A stretch of 64,000 nt of DNA from Synechococcales cyanobacterium C42_A2020_086 (GTDB lineage Bacteria; Cyanobacteriota; Cyanobacteriia; Elainellales; Elainellaceae). Made by a program: the position numbers and the translations under genes. The stretch lies in contig JACYLU010000007.1 in NCBI GenBank assembly GCA_015272325.1, positions 1-64,000 on the forward strand. Reading direction: 5' to 3'. A model generated the notes under the pieces. It did not search any database, was not told where the DNA came from, and saw only the letters and a list, made by a program, of their open reading frames with translations. Below are positions 54,255 to 64,000 of the stretch, piece by piece; position 1 is the first letter of the stretch; each line of letters starts with the position of its first letter.

Positions 54255-56987
54255 ATGAAAGCGTCATCCTCGCGTCTGCCCCATCAGGATTCTGCCAATT
54301 TGGTCCGCTCTACCGCTGTAGTCCAAGAAGACGAGCTTCACATCCTTGGAGTAGACACTGCGACTCCTGAACCCGAGATGAAGCGGGGTGCATCGCTCAC
54401 TGGGGAGTCCCCCGGCCATAACAGTTCGCCGTTTGGGGAAGCAGCGCCCCACTCCGAACCGCTGTCCGTTCCTCACCCTCCTGCTATCCGCGCTGATTCT
54501 GCCCTGACCACTCGCCGCTCCTTCTCTGCCTTTCTGGCTCCCCTAACCCAAGACACCTTCAAGCAGGTTGTCGCCGATGTGGAGCAAAAGCTTCAGGTGG
54601 TGAATCAAACTCTGTCGATGCTGGATAGTGTCCTCGACTCCCAGGGATTTGAAGCCATTCTCAACGAAATGCTGCGCTCGATCACCCTAAAAACTGGGGA
54701 ACTGCTAAACGCCGACCGCACCACGATTTTTTTGCTCGACGAAGAGAAAGACGAACTCTGGTCGATTGTGGCTCAGGATGAGCAAGGTCACAACCTGGAG
54801 CTGCGCATTCCTAAAACTGTAGGCATCGCCGGCGAAGTGGCTACCCGCAAAGCCGTCGTCAACATTCCCTACGATTTCTATAACGACACTCGCTCGCTCG
54901 CTGCCCAAGCCTTTGACAAAAAGAATCACTATCGTACCTATACGATGCTGGCGCTGCCGCTGCTGAATGAAGAGGGCAATCTGGTGGCGGTCGTGCAGCT
55001 GATCAACAAGCTGAAGGTGGGACACTCTCCGCAGGCGGCTCTAGAAGACAAAATCGATTTGGCAGGCTTTACCGCCGCAGATGAGCAGGTTTTCCGCGAC
55101 TTTGCGCCCTCGATTCGGCTGATTCTGGAATCCTCTCGCTCGTTCTACCGAGCCACCCAGCAGCAGCGGGCTGCCTCAGCCCTGATGAAAGCCACAAAAG
55201 CCCTGAGTCAAAGCAGCTTGGATCTAGAGGAAACCCTGGGCAAAGTCATGGACGAGGCCAAAGAGCTGATGCAGGCCGACCGCAGCACGCTGTGGCTGCT
55301 CGATCGAGACCGCGACCAGCTCTGGACAAAACTGCCGATCAATGGTGTCCTGCAGGAAGTACGAATTCCCATGGGGGCAGGCTTTGCTGGACAGGTGGCC
55401 CGCAGCGGTGAACCCGTGCTGATTCCCTTCGATCTCTACGACCACCCCAACGCCGAAACCGCCCGCGAAACCGACCAGAAAACCGGCTACCGCACCTGCA
55501 GTATGCTGTGTATGCCGGTCTTCAACGCCGATGGGGAGCTGATTGCCGTCACCCAGCTAATCAACAAGCGCAAGCAGGGGGAATTTCCGCCCTACGACCC
55601 CACTACCTATCCAGAAGCACCCGAGTGCTGGCGAGCCAGCTTCAACCGCAACGATCAGGAATTCATGAAGGCGTTCAATATCCAGGCGGGGGTGGCTCTG
55701 CAAAACGCCAAACTATTCGCCACCGTTAAGCAGCAAGAGCAGATGCAGCGCGATATTTTGCGGTCGCTCTCGAACGGTGTAATTTCCACCGACAAAGAGG
55801 GTCGCATTATTGCCGCTAACGAAAGCGCCAAGAAACTTCTGGGGTTGACTGACCTCGACTGCCTAGAGGGTCGGGCCGTGGCCGAGCTGATTCAGCTAGA
55901 GCAAGGTGATTTTTCCCGCTGGTTTGCCACTGCTCTCACCGCCACAGATGACAAAACTCGCCAGCAGTACTATCCTGACCAAACTCTGCTGCCGGTATTC
56001 GGGCAGGAGCAGCACAGCATTCATCTGTCGATTAACACAATCGCCGACGCCAATGATAGCCGCAAAATCTCCGGGGCGCTGGTAGTGATGGACGACATCA
56101 GCGATGAAAAGCGCCTAAAAAGCACAATGTACCGCTACATGACTCAGGAGCTGGCCGAGCAGTTGCTCAGCAGCGGCGATGCTAAGCTCGGCGGCGATCG
56201 CAAAGACGTGTCGGTGCTGTTTTCGGATATTCGCAGCTACACCACCCTCACCGAAAGCATGGAGGCCGAAGAGGTGGTCGCTATGCTCAACGAGTACTTC
56301 GAGACGATGGTGGACGCCGTATTCGCCTACAAAGGCACTCTGGATAAATACATTGGCGACGCAATTATGGCGGTGTTTGGCTCGCCGCTGCCCCTCGATG
56401 ACCATGCCTGGATGGCCGTGCAGACCGCCGTCGAGATGCGGCACCGCTTGGCAGATTTCAACGCCCCTCGTCCAGACCAGCGCAAAATTCAGATCGGTAT
56501 TGGCATCAACTCCGACTGCGTGATCAGCGGCAATATTGGCTCCAGCAAGCGCATGGAATTTACGGCCATTGGCGACGGCGTCAACCTGGGGTCGCGGTTG
56601 GAGGGAGCCAGCAAACACTATGGCTGCGACATCGTGATCAGCGAAACCACGTACCAGCCCTGTGCGGACCGCATCTGGGCCCGGGAGCTGGATCGCATCC
56701 GCGTTAAGGGTAAGCAGCAGCCGGTCAGCATCTATGAGCTGGTAGGGCTACAGCGCGACCCAATCGCCGACACGAAAAAGCGGCTGATCGACCTCTACCA
56801 CAAGGGCCGCGAGCACTACCTCAACCGCCGTTTCTCAAAGGCAACGACCGCCTTCAGCACGATTCTGGAAGAGATCGGTCCTGACAAAGCTACCTCGCTG
56901 CACTTGAAGCGCTGCCACCATTGGTTGGAGCATCCGCCCAGCGACGCACAATGGGATGACGGCGTCTGGACCTTGACTGAGAAATAG
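54255..56987 (+). CDS. class III adenylate/guanylate cyclase with two GAF domains and a PAS domain
   Basis: 910 residues, no membrane segment. Two GAF domains (~130-290 and ~320-480) share the LMQADRSTLWLLD/LLNADRTTIFLLD start. A PAS domain (~495-610: DILRSLSNGVISTDKEGRIIAANESAKKLLGL) follows, then a cyclase domain (~645-810). That domain has metal-binding Asp residues in LFSDIRSYT and YIGDAIMAVFG, and substrate-recognition residues in RMEFTAIGDGVNLGSRLEG. It most likely makes cAMP in response to ligands bound by the GAF domains. Tandem GAF cyclases such as CyaB1/CyaB2 of Anabaena are cAMP-activated, and this one may be similar. A helical tail of ~70 residues ends the protein. Confidence 0.88.
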   Translation: MKASSSRLPHQDSANLVRSTAVVQEDELHILGVDTATPEPEMKRGASLTGESPGHNSSPFGEAAPHSEPLSVPHPPAIRADSALTTRRSFSAFLAPLTQDTFKQVVADVEQKLQVVNQTLSMLDSVLDSQGFEAILNEMLRSITLKTGELLNADRTTIFLLDEEKDELWSIVAQDEQGHNLELRIPKTVGIAGEVATRKAVVNIPYDFYNDTRSLAAQAFDKKNHYRTYTMLALPLLNEEGNLVAVVQLINKLKVGHSPQAALEDKIDLAGFTAADEQVFRDFAPSIRLILESSRSFYRATQQQRAASALMKATKALSQSSLDLEETLGKVMDEAKELMQADRSTLWLLDRDRDQLWTKLPINGVLQEVRIPMGAGFAGQVARSGEPVLIPFDLYDHPNAETARETDQKTGYRTCSMLCMPVFNADGELIAVTQLINKRKQGEFPPYDPTTYPEAPECWRASFNRNDQEFMKAFNIQAGVALQNAKLFATVKQQEQMQRDILRSLSNGVISTDKEGRIIAANESAKKLLGLTDLDCLEGRAVAELIQLEQGDFSRWFATALTATDDKTRQQYYPDQTLLPVFGQEQHSIHLSINTIADANDSRKISGALVVMDDISDEKRLKSTMYRYMTQELAEQLLSSGDAKLGGDRKDVSVLFSDIRSYTTLTESMEAEEVVAMLNEYFETMVDAVFAYKGTLDKYIGDAIMAVFGSPLPLDDHAWMAVQTAVEMRHRLADFNAPRPDQRKIQIGIGINSDCVISGNIGSSKRMEFTAIGDGVNLGSRLEGASKHYGCDIVISETTYQPCADRIWARELDRIRVKGKQQPVSIYELVGLQRDPIADTKKRLIDLYHKGREHYLNRRFSKATTAFSTILEEIGPDKATSLHLKRCHHWLEHPPSDAQWDDGVWTLTEK

Positions 56988-57344: not shown

Positions 57345-58679
57345 ATGAAACGATGGGTTCTCGTCGGGCTGGCAGTGCTGAGTCTATGGTTGGGCGCAGC
57401 TCGCTGTAGCGCAGATGCAGGTGTGCAGACTGCTGCCGAACTGATAGCTGCGGTGAACCGGGGGTCTCCAGGCGATACGGTGCAGATTGCGCCGGGAACA
57501 TACATCCTCGATACGCCGCTACTGCCCAAAGCGGGAATGACGATTCAGGGAGCAGGAGCCGACCGCACGATCATCACTGCGCCTTCGTCCTGGCAACCCG
57601 ATTTGTCGCAGTTGCCCCAAAGCGAAGATCCCAGTGCCTATCTGGTGAGCTGCCGCAATACTCCCAATGTCACCATTGCCAATCTGACATTGACAGGAGC
57701 AACGCTACCCGGAGCCATCTATGCCTGGAACTGTGATGGTTTAGAGCTGTACGGCTTGCAGATCCAGGATTTTCTTTGGAGCGGCGTCCGCACCTTCAAG
57801 ATGGACCACTTCAAGGTGCACGATAATCGCTTCATTGATGCCGGCGGGCAGGAACGCCCAACGGGAGGTGCCCTCTACCTGACGCAAACCCAAAACTCCG
57901 AATTCTGGAACAATCGCATCCTAAAATCACCTGGGCAGACCCGCAACTTCTACGGCTTCAAAGGTCGCAAAGGCACAAATCTTCGTTTTCATCACAATGA
58001 TGTACAGGTGGAATTCTCGCTGGAATTCCCTCACGAAAACGACCGAGGCATCGAGATTGACCACAATCACTTCACCGGACCAATTTCGATTCCCAAGCGG
58101 GGTGGCGGTCCTGCTTTAAACAATCAATTCTCCTTCCACATCCACCACAATTGGCTGCAGCGATCCTATGCTTTGGAATGGGCACGCAATGCCGCTGAGG
58201 TCGATCACAATCTCTTTGATTTCTCGACCGACGATGACGGCGGCAACCTGATCTCTAGCTTTCGTCGAGAACCGGCTCAGGGAGCAACGCGCTTTCACGA
58301 TAACCTGATTCGCAATCCGGGACGCGGACTATTCTGGGCAGAGGGCATCTACAACCAGTTCTCTTTCTATAACAATCACGTGAAAGCAGCGACGACAACT
58401 CGCCCAGATGGGTTCTTTGGCTTCAACCCCAAAACCGATTTTTCGACTATTGTCATCCGAGACAATATCATTGAAAACACTCCAGACCGTCCGCGGCCGC
58501 TGATGCGTAACCGGCAGAGCTACGCCGCCACAATCGAGAACAACCGACTGCTGCACATTAGCGATAGCGATCAGTTCCAAAATCCTGCTACAGGCGCGAT
58601 ACAGGGACCAAAGCAGCCACTGCTGTTTCAAGCTGGCGTTGGGGGCGAATACCAGGTCAATGGTTGGGAGGTCCGCTAG
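57345..58679 (+). CDS. exported right-handed beta-helix protein
   Basis: 444 residues with a signal peptide (WVLVGLAVLSLWLGAARCSA). AAELIAAVNRGSPGDTVQIAPGTYIL is the usual entry to parallel beta-helix proteins. Repeated coils rich in Asn/His/Asp follow (DHFKVHDNRFIDAGG, EFWNNRILKSPG, RFHHNDVQVEFS, EIDHNHFTGPIS, FHIHHNWLQRS, EVDHNLFDFS). Such proteins are often polysaccharide lyases, epimerases or surface proteins; I see no specific catalytic signature. It is the last plus-strand gene before the convergent alpha-dioxygenase gene. Confidence 0.75.
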   Translation: MKRWVLVGLAVLSLWLGAARCSADAGVQTAAELIAAVNRGSPGDTVQIAPGTYILDTPLLPKAGMTIQGAGADRTIITAPSSWQPDLSQLPQSEDPSAYLVSCRNTPNVTIANLTLTGATLPGAIYAWNCDGLELYGLQIQDFLWSGVRTFKMDHFKVHDNRFIDAGGQERPTGGALYLTQTQNSEFWNNRILKSPGQTRNFYGFKGRKGTNLRFHHNDVQVEFSLEFPHENDRGIEIDHNHFTGPISIPKRGGGPALNNQFSFHIHHNWLQRSYALEWARNAAEVDHNLFDFSTDDDGGNLISSFRREPAQGATRFHDNLIRNPGRGLFWAEGIYNQFSFYNNHVKAATTTRPDGFFGFNPKTDFSTIVIRDNIIENTPDRPRPLMRNRQSYAATIENNRLLHISDSDQFQNPATGAIQGPKQPLLFQAGVGGEYQVNGWEVR

Positions 58680-58883: not shown

Positions 58884-60647
58884 CTAGCGGGTCGTTGTTC
58901 CCACTCGTCGCCAAGGCGCGAAGGCATTCTTAACATTTTCGTGAGCAGGTTTCAGCAGCGGATAGTGGCGTTGCAGCACCGACAGCATCGTGTTGCGGTC
59001 GATCCAGTCCAGCCCAAACTGAGTATAGATCTCAGCTCGGTAGTCCTTGGTGAAGAAGCGATCGCTCTTGAGTCGCCGCGACGCCATCAGGATAAACACC
59101 CGGAACGCCGTATCGCTGAAGCCAAAGCCAGCAGGCAGATCTTCGGCAAACATGCCCACCATTAGATCAACTGCATCGATGTCGTTGTGGTAAACCTCGC
59201 GCATCTCCTTCGCCCAGACCGGGTTGCTTGTGATCTCTTCAAAGGTTTTAACGCGACCGCGCCCAATCAACTCACGGAACCGGTTGTAGCGAGGCACACC
59301 GCGCTCCCGGTCTCGAATAATATCGATGGCTGCCAGATCGAGAACTTCGCCGTCGTCTTTGACCAGCTGCTGCAAAAAGCGGGGATAGTTGTGTAGCGTG
59401 ATGGCACCTGGATGGGCAATGCCAATGGAATACAGCAGATCCGTCATCGAGATATCTTCGAGGATGGCTCGTGCCCGCTTGCCAGATGCCTCAAAGAAAT
59501 CTTTCTTGGCCAGCAGCTTACCATTCTGAATCGAATACAGTTCAAATTCATCAGGAATTAGGGGATGCAGTCGATATACGGAAACGAATTCTTCGGTGAG
59601 GTAGTAGGGAGCGGTGTGGTGATCCGTCGGTGAACCGATGATGCCGCTCAGCAGCTCACCGTCGCCGATCCGCCCAAACCAGCGTTTCATCTGCTGCCCT
59701 AGCAAACCGTACCAGTTGGCGTTCATCCCAATTTGCAGCGCGGGGTGAGACAGGATGCCGGGCGTCCATTCTACGGTGTGAATCTTAGCCATCAGGGCAG
59801 CGTTGATCAGCCGAGCATGGTGATAGAGATCGTCATCGTTCCAGCTTGGATAGCGGCGCTTCAATTCGTCGCAGATCCAGTTGTGTTCCCGTACGAACAA
59901 GGTATGCAGCGAGGCCAGTCCAAACCACCAGTTTTCGTTAAAGCCAGTTTGATCCAGCCCAGTGGCTTCATCGAGAGGCAGCAACCCGTTGTCGCCAATG
60001 GTCAGCTTGCCATGGACATGAGAGCGCAGCTTATCAGCACTGTCTGGATCGTTGCCGTAGATTTGGGAACCATCCCACCAGTGGGTGGAGCGGCTGAGGT
60101 AGGTGGGGGGAGCAGAGGTATCGCCAGGAACGCGGGTTTCGTCTTCTGCAGTTTGGGCTACTGTCATGGGGCGATGTTCCTCGGGCCAGGGGTCGTCCTG
60201 CTCCAGAGGAATCTCGAATGTTTTGCTGGGGTGTTTGTGGTGGGCAAACCAGTCGTGATTTTGAAACTGGATCCAGGAGGCAGCCAAAATATTCAGCGAG
60301 GTAGCCGGAATAAATTCATCACGGGTCATCAAGGTCCGGCTAATCACCCGCGGATTTGGCTTCATTACATTTGCCTGATCCGGGTAGGCGTCTTTCAGCG
60401 GCACATTGCGGCCAAACCGGGTGCCAATCATCCCCATTTCTGGGTGTTCTAAATCATTAAAACTGCCGTCAAAGGTGCGAGTTTTTAGGTGCCGTCCTTC
60501 CGGATCGGGAGTGGGATGCGGCAACTTTTCGGTGTCAGGTAGTTGTGAAGTATCGTGAAGATTTTTTTGACGCAATTCTTGACGAAACTGATGCAATTTG
60601 AGGAGCGCAAATATTGTAGGAAGTCGATGCCAGGGTTTCTTAGACAT
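58884..60647 (-). CDS. alpha-dioxygenase-like heme enzyme (animal heme peroxidase superfamily)
   Basis: 587 residues. The distal heme His131 is in QNHDWFAHH. The catalytic Tyr358 and proximal His361 are in SVYRLHPLIPDE, with the Tyr-x2-His spacing of cyclooxygenases and alpha-dioxygenases. The KIHTVEWTPGIL and NANWYGLLGQQMKRWFG blocks and the DLLYSIGIAHPGAITLHNYP region resemble plant alpha-DOX. Family members add O2 to the alpha carbon of fatty acids, giving 2-hydroperoxides. No signal peptide or EGF domain is present. It is divergent from a catalase-fold gene 605 bases away, suggesting a lipid-peroxide pathway. Confidence 0.83.
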   Translation of the reverse strand: MSKKPWHRLPTIFALLKLHQFRQELRQKNLHDTSQLPDTEKLPHPTPDPEGRHLKTRTFDGSFNDLEHPEMGMIGTRFGRNVPLKDAYPDQANVMKPNPRVISRTLMTRDEFIPATSLNILAASWIQFQNHDWFAHHKHPSKTFEIPLEQDDPWPEEHRPMTVAQTAEDETRVPGDTSAPPTYLSRSTHWWDGSQIYGNDPDSADKLRSHVHGKLTIGDNGLLPLDEATGLDQTGFNENWWFGLASLHTLFVREHNWICDELKRRYPSWNDDDLYHHARLINAALMAKIHTVEWTPGILSHPALQIGMNANWYGLLGQQMKRWFGRIGDGELLSGIIGSPTDHHTAPYYLTEEFVSVYRLHPLIPDEFELYSIQNGKLLAKKDFFEASGKRARAILEDISMTDLLYSIGIAHPGAITLHNYPRFLQQLVKDDGEVLDLAAIDIIRDRERGVPRYNRFRELIGRGRVKTFEEITSNPVWAKEMREVYHNDIDAVDLMVGMFAEDLPAGFGFSDTAFRVFILMASRRLKSDRFFTKDYRAEIYTQFGLDWIDRNTMLSVLQRHYPLLKPAHENVKNAFAPWRRVGTTTR

Positions 60648-61252
60648 TATCAGGTTTGCTTCACAAAGCTTTAAAAGAACTAGAAAAGGAGTAGACTGAC
60701 TTACCGTTTCTGAAATGCTAGATCAAAGCACTAGTAAAGGCACTTTAACAAGGTAGACATACCATCAACAGTACCCCTATGGGTACCATCCAAGAGTCAT
60801 GAGACTATGTACAATAGCGGGCATCATGGTGCCTATAAATTAACTTGCTGTTGTAATTCGACCCGGAAGCACAAAGCATTGGTTAATATTGTTAGTCTCG
60901 AGTTAGTCTCAACTCAGGCGGGCATTTTTTCTCGGGCTTTTCTCTACATCAGTGGTTCTGCATTGTTCTGAGTTAGTTAAAAATCAATCAAGAAGTTAGT
61001 TAAGGTGCCTCATTCCAAGCAGCCTATCTTGACGCCTCCATCTGGACTTCTGGAGATGTCTGGAGCATTCGCACTGTAGATATTTATTAATGAATCAGGT
61101 TCTCATCTATAAGATTCTTTTGGGAGAGTTTGGTTACCAAGATAAAAATCGTTGTTTGAATGACGATTTGCGTGACAAGAGTTAAACCAAAAGTCAAACA
61201 AAAACATCAAATAAAAACATCAAATAAAGACATTCGATAAACTGTAAAAATC
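60648..61252. other. divergent AT-rich regulatory region of the oxidation cluster
   Basis: No gene seen. It separates the alpha-dioxygenase-like gene (minus) from the catalase-fold gene (plus) and should hold both promoters. GTTAGTCTCGA/GTTAGTCTCAA is a tandem pair near 60891-60912. AAACATCAAATAA is duplicated at ~61201-61228, just upstream of the plus-strand gene. Confidence 0.5.
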
Positions 61253-62173
61253 ATGAAGGATTTAGCAAAGGCCAAAAAGACTGATGAGTCTGATGAGCCT
61301 GAGTTCCAGGCTTTACCAGTCGACTATAGGTCGTGGTCAGCAGTACAGAAACAAGACTTTCTATGGGAAAAGCGAATTTTGACCTCGCAATATCGCGCTT
61401 TGCCTGTGCTGAAAAAGATTGACATAGTCGGGCTATTTCTGACCTCTCTACGCACCAAAATGGATTATCAGTCCGATGAAGCGCCGACAAACTGGAAGAA
61501 AGCAATCCATGCCCACGGCAGTGTCGCTAAAATCCGCTTTATTCCCACAGCAAATACCCCTTTCACTGGACTATTTCAGGGTGCCGATTATGGTCTATTG
61601 CGGCTGTCAGTCACGGGCGATCCTGCTGCTCGAGGGTTTGCCCCCGGACTGGCAATCAAATGCTTCATTGATGGGCGTCCGTCAGCGAATGTTTCTGCTC
61701 TCGTTTCTCTGGTCGGCCAGGGCGATAATTACAATTTCTTTGCCCATGAATTCTCAAATATTGTGCCGGTGGTGAATCAGCTCGGGCCCAAATTAATTAA
61801 CCTGATTTTCAGCCGCACTTCCCGCTATCCTACTAAGCTCGATCTGCAAAATCTCAGCCAGTTCCAACAAACCGGCGAGGCGGAGGCACACCCACATCAT
61901 CCGCTACAGCTATTTCTGGTTCCCACACCGGAGGTGCAGTTTCCCGCCAGCCCACCCCACGACTTTCGCACCGACCTAGCGACGATTCCAGCGGGGACAA
62001 CGCTGTTTGTGGTCTATAGTGTTGATTCCCAAGAGCACTCTTCAGAGCAGTTCGCCAACCTGCGGCAGTCTGCTCAGCAAATCGGCACAATTGAAACGAC
62101 CTCTCCTTTTGTCGCGTCTTCCTATGGCGACAGCCGTCTGTTTTTCCGGCATCAGCGCTTCAAGAATCAGTAG
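61253..62173 (+). CDS. catalase-superfamily-like protein (short)
   Basis: 306 residues, against ~480 for a true catalase. AIHAHGSVAKIRF around His86 matches the catalase distal-His strand. YGLLRLSVTGDP...ARGFAPGLAIKCFIDG aligns with the FVRFSxxGDxRGFAxKFY region, and NYNFFAHEFSN with the following segment. The C-terminus (FVASSYGDSRLFFRHQRF) is a family-like end. I do not see the catalase proximal Arg-x3-Tyr heme ligand, so heme binding is uncertain. Short catalase-fold proteins include allene oxide synthases and hydroperoxide lyases that process lipid hydroperoxides, which would fit the divergent alpha-dioxygenase-like gene. Confidence 0.65.
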   Translation: MKDLAKAKKTDESDEPEFQALPVDYRSWSAVQKQDFLWEKRILTSQYRALPVLKKIDIVGLFLTSLRTKMDYQSDEAPTNWKKAIHAHGSVAKIRFIPTANTPFTGLFQGADYGLLRLSVTGDPAARGFAPGLAIKCFIDGRPSANVSALVSLVGQGDNYNFFAHEFSNIVPVVNQLGPKLINLIFSRTSRYPTKLDLQNLSQFQQTGEAEAHPHHPLQLFLVPTPEVQFPASPPHDFRTDLATIPAGTTLFVVYSVDSQEHSSEQFANLRQSAQQIGTIETTSPFVASSYGDSRLFFRHQRFKNQ

Positions 62174-62294
62174 GTTGAGTCGGTTCGGTATCTGCGGAAT
62201 GCTGACTTCATTTGCAAACCATTTGCAAGCGATTTGTAAACGATTTACAAACGGGCATTCAAAACTTAGTTCCTTACTCCCTTGAGGTTTTTCT

Positions 62295-62726
62295 ATGACC
62301 CTTACCGTACAAGATCTGATTGCCATGTCCCAGGATGAACTCGACGAGCTTTACCGCCACAGCCCGGTTGGTGCACCACCTGACGGGAACAGCCAGGGAA
62401 CGGCCTTGATCCTGCCGGGAACGTGGCTCTGCCGCATCTTGGTGCCGCTGATTACTCTCTTGGCCTGGCAAGGCAAAGTGTTTTATCGAGAGCAGCAGTA
62501 TTTGCTCAACAAAGTTTCTCCCTTTCGGCTGCGCTTGGTGAAGGCGGCGATCTATCCCGGTGAGAGCTGGATCGATGGCAAAGCAACCACTGTTCTAGAC
62601 TACTCGCAAACCTCTTTTGTGGCGCAGAAAATCCGTGACGAAATTCGCGAGGTGGCACCTAGGCTGTATCTGGGGCAAGCCTATTGGGGCAAAACCCGCG
62701 TGCTGAATTTTATCTTGCAGTTCTAG
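62295..62726 (+). CDS. conserved protein of unknown function in the oxidation cluster
   Basis: 143 residues, beginning MTLTVQDLIAMSQDELDELY. PVGAPPDGNSQGTALILPG, then a hydrophobic stretch (WLCRILVPLITLLAW) and GKVFYREQQYLLNKV follow. The C-terminal part (YPGESWIDGKATTVLDYSQTSFVAQKIRDEIREVAPRLYLGQAYW) looks like a lipocalin-style or DUF4334-like beta domain that could bind a small lipid. No catalytic residues assigned. It lies 121 bases after the catalase-fold gene and 109 bases before the next gene, same strand. Confidence 0.6.
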   Translation: MTLTVQDLIAMSQDELDELYRHSPVGAPPDGNSQGTALILPGTWLCRILVPLITLLAWQGKVFYREQQYLLNKVSPFRLRLVKAAIYPGESWIDGKATTVLDYSQTSFVAQKIRDEIREVAPRLYLGQAYWGKTRVLNFILQF

Positions 62727-62781
62727 GGATTGCCCTCACCCCCAACCTCTCTTCCCAAAGCAGGGAGCCGATCGCGTATGC

Positions 62782-62827
62782 GTTCCCGTAAGTTCCCGAA
62801 TGAGTTCCCGAATGAGTTCCCGATTGG
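62782..62827 (+). repeat. 12-bp tandem repeat (GTTCCCGAATGA) at a gene start
   Basis: Four copies of a GTTCCCG unit occur: GTTCCCGTAA, then GTTCCCGAATGA twice (62792-62815), then GTTCCCGATTGG. The repeats carry ATGs at 62800 and 62812 in frame with the following gene, so they alter its possible N-terminus (MSSR repeated). Confidence 0.85.
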
Positions 62828-62835
62828 TACCGGCT

Positions 62836-64000
62836 ATGACCCACCAAGAAACCCTGACTGTCGTCGCCTCCATTCAGCCTGAGCAGATGGATGCCCTCAG
62901 AAATGTGCTGCAAACGATCCAGCAGAATGTTGAGCACAACGACCTGATTCCCTTTGCCCGGTTTCCGCAGGTGCATTTCGCCCGGTTTGTGATCATGGAG
63001 TCCGTGATCGATCCGGTCGGCGGCAGGGCGATTCCCGCTCAGCTCGCTTTCTCTAGCTGCATTGACACACCGCTGAAAACCTACCTGCGCTCGCTAGTGG
63101 AAACAGCCGGATCTGGGCTAGATCAGGTGTTTAGCCACTGCCAAGGCTATCCGTCACCCCAACAGCGCACCCCCCGCAGCCGCCTCGCCTACCTACGCCG
63201 CCACCAGAAAAAGACCCAGACCTTCTACGTCAATACTGTCGGGCGGACCGTGCAGCAGGTGCAGCAAGAAGCGGATCTGCGCGACAAGATCGAGCACTTT
63301 CTGGATCACGACCTGCCCCGAATGTCCCCGTTTGATGCTGCCTCAGTGCGGCGAGCCATTCAAAATTTCGTCAAGCAGGAACCGGCTCTGGCATGGGCGT
63401 TGACTCCGGTCGCTCGTCCTGGCTGGCTGTGGCAACTCCAGGAAAAACTGCATTTTGCAATCGGTCTGCTGCTGATTCTGCTGCTGGGGCTACTGTTTTT
63501 GCCCTTCGTGCCGCTATTCATAATTCTGCTGCGCTGGCATGAAGAAACGGCTCCCCATCCCCGGCAGAATCCCAATTTTCGCTTGAGTCAGTTTCATCGC
63601 CTGCATCTGGCACAAGACGAAGACTTTTTGAGCCAAAATCAATTTACCGTGGTTGGGTTTGTCAAGCCGGGCTGGTTTCGCTTGGCGACGCTGCGGGTCA
63701 TCCTAGAACTGGCCAATTTTGTGACGCGGCATGTGTTTAATAACGGCGATCTAGGAACGGTACCGCTGCTCAATTTGCACGGCGTCGATACAATTCACTT
63801 TGCTAACTGGGTCGTGATCGACGGCGGGCGGCGGGTGCTGTTTATGAGCAACTATGACGGCAACCTAGAAGACTACATGAATGATTTCATCAACAAAGTC
63901 GCCTGGGGATTAAACATTATTTTTGGTCATGGCATCGATTATCCCAAAACTCAATGGTTGGTGAAGGGTGGTGCCCGTGACGAGCAGGTTTACAAAGCCG
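62836..64000 (+). CDS. conserved protein of the oxidation cluster, incomplete at window end
   Basis: Open from ATG 62836 to the end of the window (388 codons visible, no stop). The first ~90 residues (VVASIQPEQMDALRNVLQTI...HFARFVIMESVID) look like a ferredoxin-like alpha/beta domain, as in dimeric heme or Dyp-type folds. A hydrophobic pair lies at ~213-235. A second such domain follows (~255-388: FTVVGFVKPGWFRLATLRVILE...IHFANWVVIDGGRRVLFMSNYDGNLEDYMNDFINKVAWGLNIIFGHG). No named family recognised. In-frame ATGs at 62800 and 62812 in the tandem repeat are alternative starts. It is downstream of the two previous genes in one probable operon. Confidence 0.65.
   Translation, partial: MTHQETLTVVASIQPEQMDALRNVLQTIQQNVEHNDLIPFARFPQVHFARFVIMESVIDPVGGRAIPAQLAFSSCIDTPLKTYLRSLVETAGSGLDQVFSHCQGYPSPQQRTPRSRLAYLRRHQKKTQTFYVNTVGRTVQQVQQEADLRDKIEHFLDHDLPRMSPFDAASVRRAIQNFVKQEPALAWALTPVARPGWLWQLQEKLHFAIGLLLILLLGLLFLPFVPLFIILLRWHEETAPHPRQNPNFRLSQFHRLHLAQDEDFLSQNQFTVVGFVKPGWFRLATLRVILELANFVTRHVFNNGDLGTVPLLNLHGVDTIHFANWVVIDGGRRVLFMSNYDGNLEDYMNDFINKVAWGLNIIFGHGIDYPKTQWLVKGGARDEQVYKA

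Follow-up and report, generated by a model that had tools for sequence, protein, structure and literature searches.

An intact alpha-dioxygenase and a probable catalase-fold partner without the usual heme ligand at a candidate fatty-acid oxidation locus in a cyanobacterium

The first 64,000 bases of the 120,863-base contig JACYLU010000007.1 of Synechococcales cyanobacterium C42_A2020_086 (here, the window) carry an alpha-dioxygenase (aDOX) gene that is divergent from a plus-strand run of five genes, which extends past the window end. In order, these encode a short probable catalase-fold protein (catA), a small conserved protein, a protein with two copies of an undescribed domain (FLD2; the domain, FLD), a peroxidase of the DyP type (DyP), and catB, another catalase-like protein. 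We read this region as a fatty-acid oxidation locus, a reading to which we give a probability of roughly 0.55. In it, aDOX would produce 2-hydroperoxy acids, catA would serve as a partner without tyrosinate-ligated heme, and FLD2, DyP, and catB would form a membrane module. Sequence comparisons show three elements of this reading: an intact aDOX, a conserved aDOX-catA pair, and a recurring FLD2-DyP-catB module. An earlier note on this DNA had proposed a joint oxylipin pathway; gene co-occurrence supports its fatty-acid oxidation side, while the step it gave to the catalase-like proteins lacks support, as catA is without the C-terminal tyrosine helix and catB without the distal His.

The aDOX protein matched the Pfam animal haem peroxidase family (5e-118) and, over its full length, rice aDOX 4kvj (1.4e-117; residues 4 to 579). 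Its best match outside aDOX was lactoperoxidase (1.6e-32), cyclooxygenases (prostaglandin synthase) matched over ~50 residues at 4e-13 or weaker, and an NCBIfam scan returned no family. His131, Tyr358, and His361—which we take to be the distal His, the catalytic Tyr, and the proximal His—were identical in all eight aligned aDOX sequences, and Tyr358 aligned to the Tyr that reads Phe in 4kvl. The likeness to the rice enzyme comprises both full-length similarity and retention of these three residues. Given that match and the intact residues, the earlier observation of an alpha-dioxygenase-like heme enzyme with His131, Tyr358, and His361 in place stands, and the locus aDOX is, as judged from its sequence, an intact member of the alpha-dioxygenase family. 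Two characterized cyanobacterial enzymes, CalDOX and LepDOX, use C10 to C14 acids according to the abstract of their study (PMC8720084), and we liken the locus aDOX to them by description, not by comparison of sequences. The main text of that study never uses the strings "catalase," "gene cluster," or "neighbo-," so it offers no discussion of a catA partner in such terms.

The association between aDOX and catA was approached from both genes. A pattern scan for catA, with one genome per species across 84,980 species, gave 14 named loci, all cyanobacterial according to their record titles. At 12 of these, aDOX lay directly upstream of catA on the same strand; this count includes L080, from a metagenome-assembled genome, in which catA is broken to a 91-amino-acid (aa) frame. 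The remaining two were L075, where a contig edge places catA first, and L079, where a lipoxygenase, a cytochrome P450 (P450), and a Tle1-like lipase stand in place of aDOX. Searching for aDOX instead, we obtained six strong matches (window included) from 386 genomes of the phylum and two more from 36 genomes of the family; a weak aDOX match in G342 (E value, 4e-22) and a 32-residue catA match in G396 were set aside. catA was near aDOX in four of these eight genomes, which were sampled regardless of catA: the window genome, G278, G091, and G398. The two views together yielded 19 distinct aDOX loci (20 rows, with L050 and L068, apparently the same contig, counted once). Since 12 of the 19 were fetched via catA, only the eight catA-blind genomes measure how frequently catA stands beside aDOX.

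aDOX and catA are divergent in the window and in G398, a member of another genus of the same family. The gene order in G398 (aDOX / catA, small protein, FLD2, DyP) is that of the window, with the comparison reaching only to DyP because the G398 contig ends after that gene. Conserved co-occurrence in other genomes had been set beforehand as a test of the earlier proposal, and it was found in both forms, as aDOX upstream of catA at 12 of 14 loci and as the order kept to DyP in G398. On a plasmid of Calothrix PCC 6303, aDOX is upstream of catA with two small genes between them, one of which encodes a transposase. The patchy distribution of the pair suggests transfer. A search of viral contigs for catA and FLD was unproductive.

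Neighboring genes were frequently of lipid-related types. A GMC oxidoreductase was present at 10 and a patatin-like lipase at 9 of the 14 named catA loci, and distant catA relatives were beside lipoxygenase in two genomes. Around aDOX itself, a lipoxygenase adjoins the gene on one strand in G388 (L106:9387-13535), an OYE-like flavoenzyme and a class-3 lipase occur in G080, and a P450 is nearby in G360. OYE was also found at L073, together with a RoxA-like cytochrome, and at L078. The aDOX surroundings in G338 held no lipid-type neighbor of these kinds. With lipases, oxidoreductases, and lipoxygenase nearby, these surroundings are as expected for a fatty-acid oxidation locus. An alternative is that the DyP, catalase-like, and peroxidase-like genes make up an oxidative-stress set that only clears peroxides, the lipids being incidental. 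Such a set would be in keeping with the membership of aDOX, catB, and DyP in heme families that handle peroxide or oxygen. However, aDOX resembles plant aDOX along its whole length, catA lacks the usual heme ligand, and lipases, lipoxygenase, aldehyde decarbonylase, oleate hydratase, and thioesterase recur near these genes elsewhere; we consider a pure stress function quite improbable.

The aldehyde-related genes raise another alternative, a route from fatty acid to aldehyde to alkane in which aDOX supplies the aldehydes and catA promotes controlled decarboxylation or hydroperoxide hand-over. A route of this kind has reportedly been engineered in yeast. G398 carries, ~60 bases from aDOX, an additional and divergent aldehyde-deformylating oxygenase (L104:7184-7909; 331 bits, versus 409 bits for the usual one, which is elsewhere in the genome). 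This is, however, the single such neighbor among the 19 distinct aDOX loci, and the decarbonylase of the window genome is on another contig, which leaves an alkane route unlikely in our view.

When catA alone was searched against sequence libraries (Pfam, NCBIfam, and PDB sequences), no family was named. Profile comparison by hhalign, with the sets enlarged for both partners of the alignment, gave P values of 0.0012 against catB, 0.0054 against catalases, and 0.0005 against both together, compared with 0.34 to 0.67 for controls (DyP, aDOX, GMC, and patatin). In these alignments, catA His86 fell onto the catalase distal His and Arg117-x-Ser119 onto the catalase R-F-S; these residues and Asn161 were kept in all 13 aligned catA relatives. 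We also used two AlphaFold models of the family, one led by the window protein and one by a lipoxygenase-linked relative. For both, the best 50 rows from VIA, which re-aligns Foldseek candidates only, were all catalases or catalase-related proteins (Z, 6.0 to 6.5 and 6.8 to 7.9, respectively). Foldseek itself gave no significant match with either model (best E values, 0.11 and 1.1), and a catalase appeared in 1 of its best 50 rows for the second model. Since Z values below 8 can reflect a common arrangement and the Foldseek matches were weak, a catalase fold for catA is likely, not proven. The earlier note had called catA a short catalase-fold protein and had offered structure prediction as a check. 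The protein is real, and its fold is likely from models of low confidence; the check, with catalase-type VIA rows on one side and no significant Foldseek match on the other, did not go against the note.

Catalases and catalase-related synthases hold their heme through the Tyr of a C-terminal R-x-x-x-Y. catA ends in FFRHQRFKNQ, and the C-terminal helix with this motif was missing from all 13 sequences; as judged by eye, the aDOX-linked catA proteins stop ~15 to 20 residues before the position of the catB tyrosine. No tyrosine helix was found in any frame just past the catA stop at the 13 loci read (the window and 12 others), and the longer, lipoxygenase-linked forms and a relative in Pseudomonas veronii also lack a C-terminal one. 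Truncation or frameshifting of a catalase in this one genome was considered as an explanation of catA and rejected: the end is the same at all 13 loci, with no helix in the frames past the stop. The P. veronii relative (35%) is carried on plasmids (L098 and L111), directly after an FAD oxidoreductase-like gene.

The second catalase-like protein, catB, departs from catalases in a different place. Its R379-x-x-x-Y383 was invariant in the nine aligned catB sequences, and its profile matched PDB entries 3e4w (4e-9), 4b7f (1.1e-7), and 1u5u (6e-4). At the distal His position, the window genome and G360 have Asn, and the other seven of nine have His; His was likewise seen in G414, Acinetobacter, Shinella, and Microvirga. 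An NCBIfam scan returned no family for either catA or catB. A protein of Nostoc 53789 that aligned poorly was not accepted as catB. Elsewhere in the window genome, a catB-matching fragment with an internal stop lies at C6:163310-163534. Without the tyrosine helix in catA and the distal His in catB, neither protein is an ordinary catalase. The locus proteins resemble catalase-allene oxide synthase 1u5u and catalases 3e4w and 4b7f in the catB profile matches and, tentatively, in the alignment of the low-confidence catA models, and they differ from them in the distal Asn of catB and the absent C-terminal proximal Tyr of catA.

These differences bear on whether catA and catB convert hydroperoxide via heme, as do allene oxide synthase and hydroperoxide lyase, an analogy that the earlier note had drawn for catA. 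Conservation of the distal His in catA and of R-x-x-x-Y in catB fits such enzymes, and a replacement ligand could come from His300, near the C-terminus, or from Tyr255, both identical in all 13 catA sequences. The window catA also has a mid-protein R188-x-x-x-Y192, but this string is present in only 8 of 13 sequences (111 to 116 residues from the end), is Phe-ended in G398 and L078, and is lost in distant catA. All catA members examined lack the C-terminal proximal helix, and Asn replaces the distal His of catB both in the window genome and in G360. The missing helix and the Asn weaken the analogy, and we rate it as rather unlikely to hold here. A tandem of the expected type is known from Nostoc punctiforme, in which a 10S-dioxygenase is paired with a catalase-related hydroperoxide lyase (Brash et al. 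2014, as cited in PMC13049297). The likeness lies in the pairing of a heme fatty-acid dioxygenase with a catalase-related protein; the differences, drawn from descriptions, are the alpha type of the present dioxygenase and the absence of the C-terminal tyrosine helix from catA. The titles and abstract openings listed from an open-access library described no aDOX-catalase gene pair and no FLD-DyP module.

The rest of the plus-strand run centers on FLD2 and DyP. The DyP protein matched 8re2 over residues 4 to 479 (phmmer, 2.8e-58), and the motifs G-[FY]-[RQK]-D and G-[ASC]-H-x-R-R, presumably the DyP heme-site motifs, were kept in all nine aligned sequences. Its scores did not reach the curated thresholds for DyP_N and Dyp_perox_C in Pfam or for TIGR01413 (96.4 versus 100.5 bits). 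Compared with solved DyP-type peroxidases (8re2, 4au9, and 5c2i), the locus protein is alike in its full-length similarity (to 8re2), whereas it adjoins an FLD domain and is fused with FLD in other bacteria. The two domains, putatively ferredoxin-like, that the earlier note had seen in the large protein are borne out as a duplication, as a single-domain relative matches both halves of FLD2. Its view that the protein belongs to no nameable family also holds: 19 FLD members scanned gave no convincing family (best E values, 0.012 in Pfam and 0.092 in NCBIfam), and a PDB sequence search with FLD gave no match. One histidine is invariant across FLD members. A derivation of FLD from DyP was not supported (hhalign P, 0.28, versus 0.21 to 0.63 for other families). 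Between the FLD2 halves is a strongly hydrophobic stretch, with a hydropathy of 2.5 to 3.0 in the window genome, G398, and G360 and ~2.0 to 2.8 in five plasmid proteins; corresponding values were 1.6 in a fusion in G414 and <1 in five single-domain proteins. The small protein beside FLD2 was also found there in G398 (76%) and G360 (57%). It had no match among PDB sequences, and its earlier "lipocalin-like" label rests on a weak CpeT match (12.1 bits versus a cut-off of 21; E value, 0.18).

FLD and DyP recur together outside this locus, including on proteobacterial plasmids. Four of the 386 genomes in the phylum sample had FLD matches, and in two these were single domains adjoining DyP. Among plasmids, 43 records had an FLD match, and at least 35 of these had a DyP match within 1.5 kb, as counted among the 60 of 81 DyP records listed. 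The other eight comprised seven Sulfitobacter records, one of which was read and encodes a P450-FLD-DyP protein, and one from Sinorhizobium medicae, in which no DyP was seen. A catalase-family gene was near FLD in at least 18 of the 43 (12 within 1.5 kb among the rows listed and 6 in the same run by annotation). Single P450-FLD-DyP proteins of 1,423 to 1,620 aa are encoded on plasmids of Pararhizobium (L099), Sulfitobacter (L100), and Novosphingobium (L102); the P450 part passes the Pfam cut-off in two of them and narrowly misses it in the third. G414 has a catalase-like catB-FLD-FLD fusion followed by DyP (L105:9154-11673). Clear fatty-acid genes (oleate hydratase, hydroxyacyl-CoA dehydrogenase, thioesterase, or patatin) were beside FLD in 5 of 16 annotated plasmid regions, which were not randomly chosen. 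FLD links DyP peroxidases, whose physiological substrates are to our knowledge largely unknown, to fatty-acid genes.

Several observations weigh against reading the whole region as one fatty-acid oxidation locus. The other four aDOX genomes (G338, G360, G080, and G388) had no catA match genome-wide, and no dioxygenase was annotated near the P. veronii catA relative. The named catA loci that were read lack FLD2 and DyP, and G360, with no catA match, has its aDOX and FLD2 modules on different contigs; the joint arrangement is therefore confined to two genomes, those of the window and G398. DyP does not need FLD, since 25 of the 60 listed plasmid DyP records had no FLD match. For catA, the first hhalign comparison with catB reached only an E value of 0.075, the program's own probability for the best catA match was 33%, and the two models had low confidence scores (predicted local distance difference test values of 57 and 50). 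Finally, use of His300 or Tyr255 as an alternative heme ligand could return catA to heme chemistry.

If the locus does act in fatty-acid oxidation, lipids would be hydrolyzed to free fatty acids, which aDOX would oxidize at C2 to 2-hydroperoxy acids, as characterized aDOX enzymes do. Breakdown of these acids would give aldehydes with one carbon fewer. catA may bind the hydroperoxide and steer its fate by means of its probable catalase barrel and of His86, Ser119, and Asn161 from the former distal pocket, acting without a canonical tyrosine-ligated heme. The hydrophobic linker of FLD2 would hold DyP and catB at the membrane, where the module might use or remove pathway peroxide or deal with oxidized lipid. 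We advance only tentatively, as a possibility we think doubtful, the more specific proposal that catA represents a catalase-fold family for fatty-acid hydroperoxides and a dedicated partner of bacterial aDOX. It would work either free of heme, relying on the distal pocket, or through a different ligand, for which the invariant C-terminal His is one candidate, and FLD would be a new membrane scaffold coupling DyP to catalase-related or P450 enzymes. If true, this would put an old fold to a new use, in a catalase-shaped partner that lacks the usual heme ligand. Alpha-dioxygenases serve in aroma aldehyde production, and non-plant ones are described as little known in the abstract of PMC8720084; a recurring catA partner may offer a handle on their natural pathway.

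Features of the aDOX-catA region and its continuation along contig JACYLU010000007.1
Feature	Position	Strand	Basis
aDOX, alpha-dioxygenase (587 aa)	58884..60647	-	Pfam and PDB matches; His131, Tyr358, His361; adjoins catA in other cyanobacteria
Intergenic region between divergent aDOX and catA (605 bp)	60648..61252	.	Open reading frame coordinates
catA, probable catalase-fold protein (306 aa)	61253..62173	+	Alignments, profile comparison, models
Small conserved protein (143 aa), weak CpeT match	62295..62726	+	Also beside FLD2 in G398 and G360
FLD2, two copies of undescribed domain around hydrophobic linker	62836..64152 (contig; window ends at 64000)	+	Alignment with relatives
DyP-type peroxidase, beyond window	contig 64237-65679	+	8re2 match, motifs
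catB, second catalase-like protein, beyond window	contig 65747-66973	+	3e4w, 4b7f, and 1u5u profile matches

The open reading frames lie where the earlier note had placed them, and their coordinates bear out the divergence of aDOX from the plus-strand run. The large protein that it took as the last member of that run, FLD2, is present; the window end falls inside it, and DyP and catB follow farther along the contig. Gaps within the run are ~70 to 120 bases, given the starts chosen for FLD2 (the ATG at 62836 over 62800, from alignment with relatives) and for catB (inside a longer open frame). The region between aDOX and catA presumably holds promoters in both directions. Between the aDOX gene and a gene farther upstream for a GAF-GAF-PAS-adenylate/guanylate cyclase protein (window positions 54255 to 56987) is a gene for a right-handed beta-helix protein (57345 to 58679). 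The Pararhizobium P450-FLD-DyP gene, too, is preceded by a gene with a cyclase domain.

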